64,000 nucleotides of DNA from a candidate division WOR-1 bacterium RIFOXYB2_FULL_46_45 (GTDB lineage: Bacteria; Margulisbacteria; WOR-1; XYC2-FULL-46-14). Below, piece by piece: positions 2,600 through 8,634 of the stretch; the first letter of the stretch is position 1, and each line of letters begins with the position of its first letter. The position numbers and the translations under genes are program-made. Where the stretch lies: NCBI GenBank assembly GCA_001771585.1, contig MEUE01000001.1:745984-809983 (forward strand), read 5' to 3'. The notes under the pieces are model-generated. The model ran no database searches, was not told where the DNA came from, and saw nothing but the letters and a program-made list of their open reading frames with translations.

Positions 2600-3085
2600 A
2601 TGCTGGTACTTGGAATTGATCCGGGAATCGCCGCGACCGGTTTTGGATTGGTGGAAGAGGGAAACCGGGAACACGGCCTGCTTGATTACGGCTGTATCGT
2701 GACCGACAAGTCGCAAAGCACCGAAGAGCGCCTGCAGGAGCTCTATCACGAGATGGTCCACTTAATCAAAAAATCGGAACCGGATTGTGTTTCAATCGAA
2801 AAACTTTTCTTCGCCAAAAATACCCGCACCGCCATGCTGGTCAGCCAGGCGCGCGGGGTGGTCATTTTGGCGGCGGCTGAAGCCGGAATAAAAATCGCGG
2901 AATATACGCCGCTTGAAGTAAAGATGTCGCTGACCGGCTACGGTCGCGCGGATAAAAGGCAGATTCAGGAGATGGTCAAAATCCTATTAAGGCTAAAAGA
3001 AATCCCCAAGCCGGACGACGCGGCCGACGCTCTGGCGATCGCCATTTGCCATTTGAACTCCTATAAGATAAAATCGTTGGTATGA
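2600..3085 (+). CDS. ruvC: Holliday junction endonuclease RuvC
   Basis: 161 residues, normal for RuvC. It resolves Holliday junctions in recombination by symmetric nicking together with RuvAB. The four catalytic acids are visible: D7 (LGIDPGIAATGFG), E67 (SIEKLFF), D140 and D143 (PDDAADALAIAICH). The stop codon overlaps the ruvA start as ATGA, so the two genes are coupled. No ruvB is present in the window. The start has a promoter-like TATAAT six bases upstream and no ribosome binding site, pointing to a leaderless mRNA. Confidence 0.97.
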   Translation: MLVLGIDPGIAATGFGLVEEGNREHGLLDYGCIVTDKSQSTEERLQELYHEMVHLIKKSEPDCVSIEKLFFAKNTRTAMLVSQARGVVILAAAEAGIKIAEYTPLEVKMSLTGYGRADKRQIQEMVKILLRLKEIPKPDDAADALAIAICHLNSYKIKSLV

Positions 3086-3684
3086 TCTACAGCATCACGG
3101 GAAAATTGATTGGAATAGAAAAAGGGGCAGCAATAATTGAAACCGGCGGCGTCGGCTATTTAATAAAAATCCCGACCAATTTGTCCGACCGGCTGCCGTC
3201 AATCGGATCGGAATTAAAATTTTATACCCATCACATTGTGCGGGAAGATCTTGAAGCGCTTTACGGATTTTTAAACCGCGAAGAGCGAAGCTTGTTCGGA
3301 CTTTTGATCACCGTTTCGGGGGTGGGACCGAAAGCGGCTACCGCAATCATGTCAAATTTCGCGCTTGAGATGATTACTTCCGCGATTGTGAAAGGGAACT
3401 CCGAAATTCTCGCTTCCGCTCCGGGGGTCGGCAAAAAAACCGCGGAGAAGATCTGCATTGAACTGCGCGAAAAGCTGGCCAAGACCTTGGGAGTCAAGCC
3501 ATCGGAGATGCAGCAGGCCATCCCGAACGAAAAGGGGATCGTAAACGACGCCGTCGCCGCGCTGATGACGCTCGGTTATTCTCCCAAAGAAGCGCGGGAG
3601 GCGATTTTTAATTCTAAAATTGATCTTGAAAAGGCCGGAAGCGTTGAAGAGATTATAAAATCGTCGCTTAGGGCTCTAGTTTAG
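3082..3684 (+). CDS. ruvA: Holliday junction DNA-binding protein RuvA
   Basis: 200 residues, full length. RuvA tetramers bind the Holliday junction and load the RuvB motor. The OB-fold N-terminus (MIYSITGKLIGIEKGAAII), two helix-hairpin-helix motifs (VSGVGPKAATAIM and APGVGKKTAEKICIEL) and the C-terminal RuvB-contact domain (VNDAVAALMTLGYSPKEA) are all present. It overlaps ruvC by four bases. A second, damaged copy of the segment from codon 27 to the stop lies 2.2 kb downstream (5900-6186), beyond an inserted orphan gene. This upstream copy is the intact one. Confidence 0.97.
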   Translation: MIYSITGKLIGIEKGAAIIETGGVGYLIKIPTNLSDRLPSIGSELKFYTHHIVREDLEALYGFLNREERSLFGLLITVSGVGPKAATAIMSNFALEMITSAIVKGNSEILASAPGVGKKTAEKICIELREKLAKTLGVKPSEMQQAIPNEKGIVNDAVAALMTLGYSPKEAREAIFNSKIDLEKAGSVEEIIKSSLRALV

Positions 3685-4014
3685 CCAAAGCCACTTAACT
3701 TCCTCAATATTCTGATTAGCTGAAATCTGCCTCGGTTTTTAACGATATATATAGGAGATAGAAAGAGGAAGTCCCTAGAGATACTGAAAACAAAAAAGGA
3801 GATGACCTAAAATGAGTTACACCTCTTTGCTAATGCTAAAAAAAAACTAGTCCTTATTTTATGATAACAGTTAGTCCTGAGCAACCTAAACCAATTAGAT
3901 GGCGTGATGGAAATGCAATTAGTATCCGAGGTTTTAATCTTTCAATCATGGAACCCGATGATCATTGCTTATTATAACAAAAATGTTGAAATCTAATGAT
4001 CTATTAAACGATAT
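3685..4014 (+). other. 330-base AT-rich gap with two possible tiny ORFs
   Basis: This gap separates intact ruvA from the inserted 629-residue gene and is AT-richer than its surroundings. The first ten or so bases after the ruvA stop still resemble the yqeG 3' end found after the second ruvA copy, so the duplication runs slightly past ruvA. Two tiny frames exist: 12 codons at 3812-3850 with a good Shine-Dalgarno (AAGGAG), which could be a leader peptide, and 38 codons at 3861-3977 without one. Neither resembles anything I know. No tRNA, terminator or integrase is visible. Confidence 0.4.
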
Positions 4015-5904
4015 ATGGATATATTAAATATTTTTAAAATATTAGGGTTTAACGACCATCCTAGTTTGGGAAGGCGGGGCATAATAGAGCGTCGCCCTTG
4101 GTACGAAGTAAGCTGTAATCCCCTGCCGGAGGAAGGGTACCGTGAAGAAGTTGATGTAAATCGTGACGGATTAATTACAAAAGATGAAGCATGGAAATTT
4201 TTAATATCAAATAGAAGCCACTATCAGAATGTTCATAGAAGATTAATCCTGCAAACATTAACTAATAATCCCAATCATCCATATGCCAAAATGGCGTTAT
4301 TAGGCATGCAAGGAGAAAATTCGGATAATTTTATCCTAAATTTCTTTTTAAAAAAAACGATGTCTTCCGCGAATTTATCTGACAATGAAGAAGATGTTTT
4401 ACGGCTTATTCTTTATAAGTATATCAGTTCAGACTGCCCGCAAAGACTCGGGATATTGTTTAATGTGGCATATCCGTCTGCGAGAGCGATTTTAAGGCTG
4501 GCTGTTTTAAAATTAATTGCCTCTTCGAAAGAAACTTTTACGCTCCTAAAGGGGTGGAGCGTCATTGAGGCGTATATTCTGGATTGTATGAAAGACAAGT
4601 TGCTAAAGGTCCGTTTGGCGGCTGAAGTACTGGCAACGGATATTGGAATAAATTATTCTGTCCTTCCGGCTGATATGGCAAAACATATTGGCAAATACGG
4701 CAACGCGCCCGGGGATACTCCACATGCCAGGGCATCGACCGCAATAGCAATTAAAGAAAGGCTTTTCCTGCCTGATGAAATAAAAAATAAAAGTCCATTT
4801 TATGAGCTTGGGTTTTACCCGGGCCTTGTTGAACATTTTAGGAGCCATGAGGTTTTTTGGCTTCTTGCGAAGGAAGCGGCAAAGCTTCCAAGAGTAATAA
4901 GGGAGCGAGCAATCAGTTTAATTTATCCCGGCTCCGGATCTCATTTGGCTCCCCTTGATTTATTGCATAATTTAATACGGCAGAAAAAGATAGACAGAGC
5001 CGCAATAACATATACCGAAATAAGCGAAGAATCCCTAAAAAATACAAATAGATTGATACAAGGCTTGGCCCAAAAAGGGATCTATTCAGATCTTCGGATA
5101 ACAACAAAAGAGGAAAGAGATGCTCTTCGCCCAATAACTAAATCAGAAACGGTTTTCTTATTCAATTATCTTGGCAAAAAAATTGAGCTTAGATTTAAGT
5201 TAAATATGAGCGGATTTAATTATTATAATAGTGAAGATCTGGAAAGGGCGGATGTCTGGATTGTCCACGATCCAATAGGAGGAGCTCCGGAAGATTCTTT
5301 GGCTTTGTTGAGCTTATTTTTTCAGTCTTTATTCCGGCAAAAACAGCGCGGCGCGACACCACTAATTGTCATGGAAAATTTAAATGACGACATTTGGACG
5401 TTTTTGGATTTTGTAGACGATGCCATCTTTGTAGGCGATAAAGCTGTGATTCCTTTCCCATACGGGCATCGTGGAGAATTTATCAGTCGGGAATCCGGAA
5501 TTTCTCGGTATAGGTCGGCGCTTGCCTTTTGGCCGAAACTGGATTTTTGGCGGCAATTTTCTTTGGAAGAAATAGATTTTATCTTTAGATTTTCTCCTAT
5601 TGATATTGAGTCCGCCTCTATTAATTTTAAGGGAAAAGAAGTTAAGATTAAAGAGCCGGATGTGCCTGAAGATGAAATACCCGAATTTAAAAGGAGGCTT
5701 GAGAAATTAGTTTCAATTGCAGGCTCGGTTACGGCAAAACTCCAAAAAAGTCATCCTCATTTATCTGAAATCTTTGATAATAGGGCAAAGGTTATCCGCA
5801 AGTATCTTCAAGCCGCAATCGTGCCAAAAGATGATGGATCTGACCTTTGTATTAAGGCTTTGAAAGGGGTTAGGCGGGCAGAAAAGCAAATAAAGAAGAA
5901 ATAA
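4015..5904 (+). CDS. Orphan protein: EF-hand loop, helical repeats, Rossmann-like domain
   Basis: 629 residues of unknown function. Residues 47-58 (DVNRDGLITKDE) form a textbook 12-residue EF-hand calcium loop with D1, N3, D5, G6, I8 and E12. Residues about 65-300 are helix-rich and HEAT-like. From about 300 a Rossmann-like region follows: a glycine-rich turn (YPGSGSHLAPLDLL), an acidic strand end (ITYTEIS), ADVWIVHDP and PLIVMEN, arranged as in class I SAM-dependent methyltransferases. That reading is tentative. The C-terminus is basic (ends EKQIKKK). The TAA stop lies inside sequence homologous to ruvA, so the gene may have lost its native end when it joined there. It is AT-richer than its neighbours and is flanked by two ruvA copies, so it was probably acquired. 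Confidence 0.6.
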   Translation: MDILNIFKILGFNDHPSLGRRGIIERRPWYEVSCNPLPEEGYREEVDVNRDGLITKDEAWKFLISNRSHYQNVHRRLILQTLTNNPNHPYAKMALLGMQGENSDNFILNFFLKKTMSSANLSDNEEDVLRLILYKYISSDCPQRLGILFNVAYPSARAILRLAVLKLIASSKETFTLLKGWSVIEAYILDCMKDKLLKVRLAAEVLATDIGINYSVLPADMAKHIGKYGNAPGDTPHARASTAIAIKERLFLPDEIKNKSPFYELGFYPGLVEHFRSHEVFWLLAKEAAKLPRVIRERAISLIYPGSGSHLAPLDLLHNLIRQKKIDRAAITYTEISEESLKNTNRLIQGLAQKGIYSDLRITTKEERDALRPITKSETVFLFNYLGKKIELRFKLNMSGFNYYNSEDLERADVWIVHDPIGGAPEDSLALLSLFFQSLFRQKQRGATPLIVMENLNDDIWTFLDFVDDAIFVGDKAVIPFPYGHRGEFISRESGISRYRSALAFWPKLDFWRQFSLEEIDFIFRFSPIDIESASINFKGKEVKIKEPDVPEDEIPEFKRRLEKLVSIAGSVTAKLQKSHPHLSEIFDNRAKVIRKYLQAAIVPKDDGSDLCIKALKGVRRAEKQIKKK

Positions 5905-6186
5905 AAATCCCGACCAATTTGTCCGACCGGCTGCCGTCAATCGGATCGGAATTAAAATTTTATACCCACCACATTGTGCGGGAAGACCTTGGGGGTCAAG
6001 CCATCGGAGATGCAGCAGGCCATCCCGAACGAAAAAGGGATCGTAAACGACGCCGTCGCCGCGCTGATGACGCTCGGTTATTCTCCCAAAGAAGCGCGGG
6101 AGGCGATTTTTAATTCTAAAATTGATCTTGAAAAGGCCGGAAGCGTTGAAGAGATTATCAAGTCGTCGCTTAGAGCTCTAGTCTAG
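5900..6186 (+). pseudogene. ruvA fragment with internal 236-bp deletion
   Basis: These 287 bases match 3162-3684 of intact ruvA minus exactly 236 bases. The deletion junction falls in the shared sequence aagaYcttg (3245 and 3481 in the intact gene), and 236 is not a multiple of three, so the 3' part is frameshifted relative to the 5' part. There is no start codon region. The 7 base differences from intact ruvA all lie at third codon positions and are all synonymous. The end overlaps the 3' end of convergent yqeG, whose stop codon lies inside this fragment; this is presumably the original ruvA/yqeG junction. Confidence 0.93.
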
Positions 6187-6670
6187 CCAAAACCCATTGC
6201 TCCGCGGCACGCATCAGTTTGCGATACCATTTTATTTCACACCCGATCGGCTTGACCAAAATAGTATAAACCCCGGCGCGGTTGCCTCCCCAGATATCCA
6301 TAAAAAGCTGGTCGCCGATCGCGGCGATCCGGCGCGGCGGAAGCCCCAAAATCCGAATCGCCCGGTTATAGCCCCCGGAAAGCGGCTTGAAAGCCAAAGT
6401 GACGCAGGGAAGATTAAGCTCCCGCGCGAATTTTTCAACCCGCTCCGGGCTAAAATTGTTGGAGAGGATGCAAAGCTTAAAACCCCGGTCCTTAATCCCT
6501 TCGATAAAATTATAGATTAAAGGATTCAGCGTGTAATCCCGGCGCGGCAAAAGAGTATCGTCCAGATCTAAAATTATCCCCTCGATCCCTTTTTGTTTAA
6601 GGGCGTCAAAGTCGATATTGCGGATTGTGTCGCGGTACTCTTTGGGGCGAAAAATCTCAAGATCAAACAT
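6170..6670 (-). CDS. yqeG: YqeG-family HAD IIIA phosphatase
   Basis: 166 residues. HAD motifs are complete: motif I D35-L-D37-DTLLP, motif II S70-N-N, motif III lysine K95 (AFKPLSGG), motif IV GDQLFMD at 119-125. The nucleophile is D35 and the acid/base D37. YqeG-type proteins are phosphatases of about this length, often near ribosome-assembly or shikimate genes; the substrate is not settled. Its ATG directly follows the argB TAG, so it is the last gene of the arg operon. Its final codons overlap the ruvA fragment on the other strand. Confidence 0.85.
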   Translation of the reverse strand: MFDLEIFRPKEYRDTIRNIDFDALKQKGIEGIILDLDDTLLPRRDYTLNPLIYNFIEGIKDRGFKLCILSNNFSPERVEKFARELNLPCVTLAFKPLSGGYNRAIRILGLPPRRIAAIGDQLFMDIWGGNRAGVYTILVKPIGCEIKWYRKLMRAAEQWVLARLEL

Positions 6671-7545: not shown

Positions 7546-8634
7546 CTAAGTGTGATACTTCGCGTTGATATTAATATATTCTTCGGTCAAGTCGCAACCC
7601 CAGGCTGTCGCGGAATTCTTCCCAACCCCCAAGTCGCAAGTAACAACCGTCTCTTCTTTGCCAAATTTCATCCCGGTTTTGACCTTGTCAACATTCATGC
7701 GGGCAGAAGTGGTCCCGATCGCGGCGTAAATCCGCCCCGGGTTGTGGTCGCGCCCATAGACCGCGCATTTCAAAAGATCGGAATTGGCAATCGCCTTGGC
7801 CGCCAGGCGGGCCTCTTTTTCCGATGCCGCTCCGGTTACGCGAACCGTCATCAGCTGAGTTGCCCCTTCCCCATCCTTTGCAATCATCTTCGCCAGCTCG
7901 ACACAAACTTTTTCCAGCGCTTCTTTGAACCCCGCCTTTGCATTTGATAAACCGTTTGCCAGGACAAAGACGCAATCGTTGGTGCTCATGCAGGTATCAA
8001 CCGAGATCATATTAAAAGATTTATCGGCTGCTTCATCCAAAAGTTTTTGGAGGGTCTTCAAATCAATTGAGGCATCGGTTGCAATAAAAGCGTGCATGGT
8101 GGCATGGCGCATTTTAGGGTCGATCATTCCCGATCCCTTGGCGATCCCGGAGATAGTGTAGCCGCCGGTTTTTATCGTTACCTCTTTTGCAACTTTGTCG
8201 GTCGTTAAGATGGAAAGGGCGGCGTCATGTCCGCCGTCTTTTGAAATGGCGGCGGCGGTCTTTTTTATCCCCGCCTTTATCTTATCGATCGGCAAATATT
8301 TCCCGATAATTCCGGTTGAAGTGACCAGAACGCTTTCTTTTGGAATATTAAGCGCCCGGGCGGTCTCGGAAACCATCGTCCAGGCGTCTTTTATTCCCCG
8401 CTTTCCGGTGGCGGCATTGGCGTTCCCGGCATTGGCGACAATGGCTTGGATCTTCCCGTGTTTGATCTGTTTTTCGGAGACGATAATCGGGGCGGCTTTA
8501 AATTTGTTGGTTGTAAATACGGCGGCAGCGGCAGCCGGCACCTCCGAATAAATAATTGCCAAATCTTTCTTTCCCGATTTTTTTAATCCGCAGGCCAATC
8601 CGGCCGCTTTAAAACCCTTGGGAGAAGTAATCAT
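7546..8634 (-). CDS. argJ: Glutamate N-acetyltransferase / ornithine acetyltransferase
   Basis: 362 residues. ArgJ recycles the acetyl group from N-acetylornithine to glutamate and in some species also makes acetylglutamate from acetyl-CoA. The autocleavage site is recognisable: KGSGMIDPKM, then A178-T179-MHAF, with T179 as the nucleophile of the beta chain. Between PKM and ATM two extra residues (RH) appear compared with the usual PNMATM; this is read directly but its effect is unknown. The start codon overlaps the argC stop as ATGA. Confidence 0.95.
   Translation of the reverse strand: MITSPKGFKAAGLACGLKKSGKKDLAIIYSEVPAAAAAVFTTNKFKAAPIIVSEKQIKHGKIQAIVANAGNANAATGKRGIKDAWTMVSETARALNIPKESVLVTSTGIIGKYLPIDKIKAGIKKTAAAISKDGGHDAALSILTTDKVAKEVTIKTGGYTISGIAKGSGMIDPKMRHATMHAFIATDASIDLKTLQKLLDEAADKSFNMISVDTCMSTNDCVFVLANGLSNAKAGFKEALEKVCVELAKMIAKDGEGATQLMTVRVTGAASEKEARLAAKAIANSDLLKCAVYGRDHNPGRIYAAIGTTSARMNVDKVKTGMKFGKEETVVTCDLGVGKNSATAWGCDLTEEYININAKYHT

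Follow-up and report, generated by a model that had tools for sequence, protein, structure and literature searches.

An insert between a complete and a truncated ruvA in a candidate division WOR-1 bacterium, probably acquired by recombination with a close relative

Insertion with long target duplication was described in Helicobacter pylori by Nobusato et al. 2000; as summarised in PMC1643837 and PMC4978471, it places an accessory gene between long direct repeats of its target, with an empty site in relatives and no transposase, frequently but not by strict definition in association with restriction-modification genes. Here we describe a locus of this kind in a stretch of 64,000 nucleotides (the window) from the candidate division WOR-1 bacterium RIFOXYB2_FULL_46_45, in which a 2.2-kb insert with a gene for a 629-residue protein lies between a complete copy and a truncated copy of the DNA-repair gene ruvA. 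The window covers positions 745,984-809,983 of a 1.03-Mb contig, in a genome of 1.70 Mb and four contigs estimated to be 99.5% complete and 0.3% contaminated. Related products are known from Escherichia coli, where conjugated plasmid DNA left part of the target end duplicated in 56 of 60 integrants (109-950 bp in those sequenced); these duplications were attributed to circular molecules that integrated by a single crossover, and true homology-facilitated illegitimate recombination (HFIR) was rarer (PMC3240628). An HFIR-like anchor model has also been proposed for the cargo of Vibrio type VI secretion systems (PMC5361080).

The ruvA locus shares with the Helicobacter system, in the features summarised above, the accessory gene between long direct target repeats, the empty site in relatives and the lack of a transposase. 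The resemblance had been proposed in an earlier reading made from the DNA letters alone (the sequence-only reading), and the long target repeat, the empty sites and the absence of transposase and integrase bear it out. In contrast, the cargo is not a restriction-modification gene and belongs to no Pfam, NCBIfam or PADLOC family, the silent nature of the differences between the two copies points to a donor strain, the truncated copy is a decaying remnant, the repeats are gene ends, and many loci are affected. As in the E. coli integrations, part of a target gene end is duplicated beside foreign DNA, but those came from an experiment with a selected plasmid (PMC3240628) and the present case is natural, with a diverged donor. 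HFIR in Acinetobacter, Streptococcus and Pseudomonas is alike in that one-sided homology anchors non-homologous cargo and displaced resident parts remain; its usual products, however, delete resident DNA, which is here duplicated. The minimal mobile elements of Neisseria are integrase-free accessory genes situated between conserved genes and swapped via flanking homology, and a clean exchange is expected there, unlike the gene-end remnants at this locus. The kind of insertion is thus already known; the signature of silent divergence, the recurrence of the pattern and a cargo with sigma28-like promoters look new.

On the left, the locus begins with its native context, an intact ruvC (2600-3085, + strand; Pfam RuvC, 1.6e-53), followed by ruvA copy 1 (3082-3684, +), which is complete, encodes 200 amino acids with the Pfam domains RuvA_N, HHH_5 and RuvA_C, and has 67% identity to RuvA of the nearest relative, the only other genome of the bacterium's family that was compared (G001, Candidatus Saganbacteria bacterium bin.294, with its ruvA locus on JABMQY010000115). 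The insert proper, of 2,207 bp (3693-5899), separates the left copy of the target duplication (3162-3692, +) from the right copy (5900-6194, +), and yqeG (6170-6670, - strand) forms the native right context, as judged from the gene order in G001. Two direct repeats, 3162-3253/5900-5991 and 3481-3692/5983-6194, are in fact one repeat from which copy 2 has lost 236 bp at 5985-5991; the deletion ends in near-identical 7-mers (GATCTTG at 3247-3253 and GACCTTG at 3483-3489). Copy 2 is a ruvA remnant without a start, lacking the first 26 codons, and is frameshifted because 236 is not a multiple of three. The sequence-only reading had described copy 2 as ruvA minus 236 bp with seven silent third-position differences, which is correct, and the repeat extends to 8 bp beyond the ruvA stop codon.

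All seven coding differences between the copies (3231, 3492, 3534, 3657, 3660, 3672 and 3681) fall at codon position 3 and are silent; an eighth (3690, G/A) lies beyond the stop codon, and an apparent difference at 3249/5987 is within the deletion junction and uninformative. Random mutation in the covered ruvA codons would be silent in a fraction of 0.24-0.31 of cases, so that seven out of seven silent changes in copy 2 have a probability of 4e-5 to 2.6e-4 (transition weights 1 to 8). All 195 non-third positions are unchanged, so that drift after the insertion is limited to about 1.5% (95%). Set against this bound, the differences in 8 of 97 third-position columns indicate that the silent divergence is mostly older than the insertion. 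The earlier proposals that both copies diverged while functional, that a related strain was most likely the source of one of them together with the insert, and that the 236-bp deletion is later than the insertion are supported, also by a silent-only scar beside a paralog at priA and by similar sites elsewhere in the genome.

Empty sites, which the sequence-only reading had suggested looking for, are present in relatives. In G001, ruvA faces yqeG with no insert and the two genes overlap by 17 bp, just as yqeG and copy 2 do here, and the insert-free order was also found in seven other relatives (L005, L006, L007, L008, L009, L013 and L015); all eight belong to other genera. The native surroundings are therefore divided between the two copies, the left side adjoining copy 1 and the right side copy 2. 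A complete gene, cargo, a truncated gene and then the native neighbour is the outcome of a single crossover with a circle composed of a gene end and cargo; the arrangement of a complete gene on one side and a truncated gene beside the native neighbour on the other is found at ruvA and, mirrored, at priA.

We consider it probable that the insert was gained by recombination with DNA of a close relative that carried the cargo right behind ruvA, with ruvA homology as the anchor. By the likeliest route, a donor fragment with the end of ruvA and the cargo would have been circularised by end joining and would have entered the chromosome through one RecA-type crossover within ruvA, giving a complete hybrid ruvA, the cargo, a 5'-truncated resident ruvA and yqeG. 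Copy 1 would then probably have a resident 5' end and a donor 3' end, and the truncated copy, being redundant, would decay, the 236-bp deletion representing the first visible step. Alternatively, a linear fragment could have given the same product by HFIR. The donor, the direction of transfer and the circular or linear route are what we infer.

The view of the ruvA locus as a one-off is not borne out; the locus belongs to a pattern that extends across the genome. We scanned 894 kb of the genome in stretches, the window included (53% of the genome), for direct repeats of which only one copy falls inside an open reading frame (ORF). Nine small inserts proved to be clearly bounded by a duplicated gene end; at eight of them the copies differ mainly at third positions, and at guaA they are identical. 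With differences given as third/other positions, counted automatically in automatically assigned frames, these are ruvA (8/0, including the uninformative junction site), priA (L024, 6/0), aroA (L082, 5/0), an ntrC-like gene (L043, 8/2), a glycosyltransferase gene (L088, 9/5), pmbA (L083, 6/4), a gene for a 410-amino-acid (aa) protein (L082, 5/2), glnB (L091, 2/1) and the 3' end of guaA, where an exact 28-bp repeat (L025, 4620-4647 and 5372-5399) bounds an MNT/HEPN pair. Repeats in L048, L036, L041 and L087 were excluded as clear silent cases, having differences without third-position bias; among them, the scars at mscS (L048, 2/7), an ATPase gene (L048, 2/6) and mutS (L036, 2/3) are probably older and decayed. 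When the eleven events that show differences are pooled, third positions account for 55 of the 85 (P = 3e-9 against one third, an approximate value as sites were chosen by similarity and frames assigned automatically). Junction positions and lengths vary between sites. The control sample, 1,053 kb from G001, G007, G011 and G016, yielded a single weak case in which third-position differences outnumber the others (L242 in G007, 3/2), although some of these assemblies are fragmented and may hide such repeats; G011 is a single contig. With at least eight further scarred sites in the sampled half, this looks like a repeated route of gene gain without transposase or integrase.

The site at priA contains a paralog of the ruvA cargo and is the mirror image of the ruvA scar, with the remnant on the left and the intact gene on the right. 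In L024, a 575-aa paralog and a 381-aa gene sit between rnfD and priA, and positions 5170-5205, left of the insert, repeat the priA start (8236-8271). From the ATG onward, all five differences are at third positions and silent, with one more before the ATG. At the ntrC-like gene, both copies share one early stop, whereas the G001 version has 468 aa and overlaps a patatin gene; the truncation is therefore older than the duplication and common to donor and recipient, which are accordingly close kin. Regarding the same gene, the regulator (L043, 16683-17840) lacks the C-terminal region, with 385 aa compared with open frames of 394-525 aa in relatives. Among the other cargo found in the scan are a SIR2-like gene, a 23S_rRNA_IVP four-helix protein and an alpha/beta hydrolase. 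The G+C content of the inserts is 37-42%, with mscS as the exception. In L048 (8157-9682 and 14481-14554), pieces of mscS, of the end of an ATPase gene and of an upstream stretch are grouped around a hydrolase gene, as would remain of a several-kb duplication after decay by deletions.

Where a live gene and its scar differ only silently, acquisition from a relative can be told apart from duplication within the genome, and no donor genome is needed. The scar also gives a relative age, by silent divergence before the insertion and decay afterwards. If the genome-wide count holds, this uncultured lineage gains defence-like, toxin-antitoxin and lineage-specific genes largely via host recombination at core-gene ends.

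Several observations weigh against acquisition from a relative, at least in its simplest version. Five of the eight ruvA differences are crowded into the final 38 aligned bases (Fisher P = 0.001), a stretch that in copy 2 overlaps yqeG on the opposite strand, and the simplest version does not account for this 3' clustering; a mosaic crossover, gene conversion and release from the yqeG overlap are possible causes. As to which copy groups with the host, a question raised by the sequence-only reading, agreement with G001 is mixed: it matches copy 2 at 3660, 3681 and 3690 and copy 1 at 3492 and 3534. The first three sites would suit a copy 2 whose 3' end is the resident one without proving it, and agreement at variable sites was dropped as a means of picking the resident copy, as the sites split without a decision. 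The presence of ComEC and DprA in the genome counts in favour of the acquisition, yet both are common in bacteria and do not prove competence. Ku, for end joining, is absent from the genome, although other ligation routes exist.

An unlikely alternative is that the assembler joined haplotypes with and without the insert from a mixture of strains, so that the second ruvA piece is the allele of another strain. Such a mixture would also yield silent-only differences and many like sites in one genome, and the assembly is probably derived from a metagenome; on the other hand, no strain could depend on a copy without its first 26 codons and with a frameshifting deletion as its sole ruvA, decay with non-silent changes and indels is seen in several further remnants (mutS, mscS, ATPase), the contigs are long and the estimated contamination is 0.3%. 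Some phages integrate at the ends of protein-coding genes and replace the gene end. If a degenerate element of this type had supplied a new ruvA 3' end and displaced the resident one, the hybrid gene, replaced end, displaced remnant and silent differences would be alike in kind, and the exact 28-bp guaA repeat would suit. We nevertheless regard site-specific integration as quite improbable: the insert has no integrase, the repeats range from 28 to more than 500 bp at both 5' and 3' ends of unrelated genes, and inspection of the inner boundaries at ruvA, priA, guaA, ntrC, pmbA and the glycosyltransferase gene revealed no common core.

Functional paralogs diverge silently too, and an old tandem ruvA duplication in the lineage, with both copies functional for a while, a later insert and the subsequent loss of copy 2, would account for the silent differences. 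It would require two separate events per locus at many loci, the second copies are gene ends and not whole genes, and no tandem ruvA was found in G001 or the seven other relatives compared, including the simple tandem without insert that the sequence-only reading had named as contrary evidence; there is accordingly little probability in this explanation. Selection on copy 2 itself is extremely improbable. A 70-aa ORF (5974-6186) is open, spans the C-terminal domain and differs only silently, and as a free RuvA domain III its product could bind and modulate RuvB. However, it has a TTG start and no clear ribosome-binding site, and the untranslated part upstream is also near-identical, so that youth alone suffices.

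The insert has 38.5% G+C, compared with 46.4% in the genome sample, and no integrase or transposase was detected in it by ORF and Pfam analysis, in agreement with the sequence-only reading. Its 629-aa gene (4015-5904, +) was identified from the ORF, a family alignment and weak fold matches. The stop codon (5902-5904) lies in ruvA-derived DNA; truncation of the gene at the junction was first assumed and then dropped, as the unaligned tail has 43 residues against 53 in the comparison with L027, and only the origin of the stop codon is claimed. The gene had been called an orphan, which is wrong: two further members of the family occur in the same genome and two in G001, one of the former adjoining the toxin-antitoxin-like MNT/HEPN pair of L025. 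Searches of a further 72 genomes from the phylum, of GTDB contigs and of IMG/VR viral contigs yielded no additional member. The protein has an N-terminal part that is EF-hand-like and helical, followed by a core of about 350 aa that all members share, with a motif like YPGSGSHLAPLD. Sequence searches of Pfam, NCBIfam, PADLOC and the PDB assigned it to no family. The AlphaFold model is weak (pLDDT 64), and SAM methyltransferases predominate among its best PDB matches (EgtD, histamine methyltransferase and M.BseCI; E 0.009-0.1, low TM-scores), a hint from the model that the core may be methyltransferase-like. Upstream, direct reading of the sequence shows a short frame (3812-3977, +) that has a good ribosome-binding-like site but is interrupted by a single base at an A9 tract (3838-3846); minus one A, it would encode about 54 aa. 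Phase variation, decay and homopolymer error are alternatives for this break.

Two sigma28-like motifs were found in the insert by pattern matching, one (TGAAAT...ACGATAT) at 3721-3748 (+) and one immediately before the 629-aa ORF at 3987-4014 (+), with a chance expectation of 0.03 for both together. The sigma28 consensus is TAAAGTTT-N11-GCCGATAA, which the recurring motif resembles. In 888 kb of the sample, TGAAAT-N13-17-ACGATA occurs 27 times, compared with 0-1 for permuted patterns, and most sites lie a few to about 130 bp before seemingly lineage-specific ORFs, large ones among them; some of the ORFs behind the motif encode kinase, HD or AAA domains. Elsewhere, the motif occurs 12 times in 253 kb of G001 and nine times in 400 kb of G007. 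The best FliA-like gene scores 143 bits, under the family cut-off, and adjoins genes that look flagellar by reading of the sequence (flgB/flgC/fliE-like). The motif may mark a sigma28 regulon of lineage-specific proteins. A broader proposal, which we consider doubtful, is that accessory genes, among which are lineage-specific ones with their own sigma28-type (flagellar sigma) promoters, circulate among related Saganbacteria strains as integrase-free cassettes that insert at core-gene ends by homologous recombination and leave datable scars; the cargo would be expressed together with the flagellar system, which might also export it. Written as TGAAATTT-N12-AACGATATATATATAG, the motif recurs in the window and in L041, L043, L044, L046, L050, L082, L091, L024 and others. 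In addition, about 33 bp with the promoter motif (window 3721-3753) are nearly identical upstream of an unrelated, distant 440-aa ORF on the minus strand of L091, near 15733.

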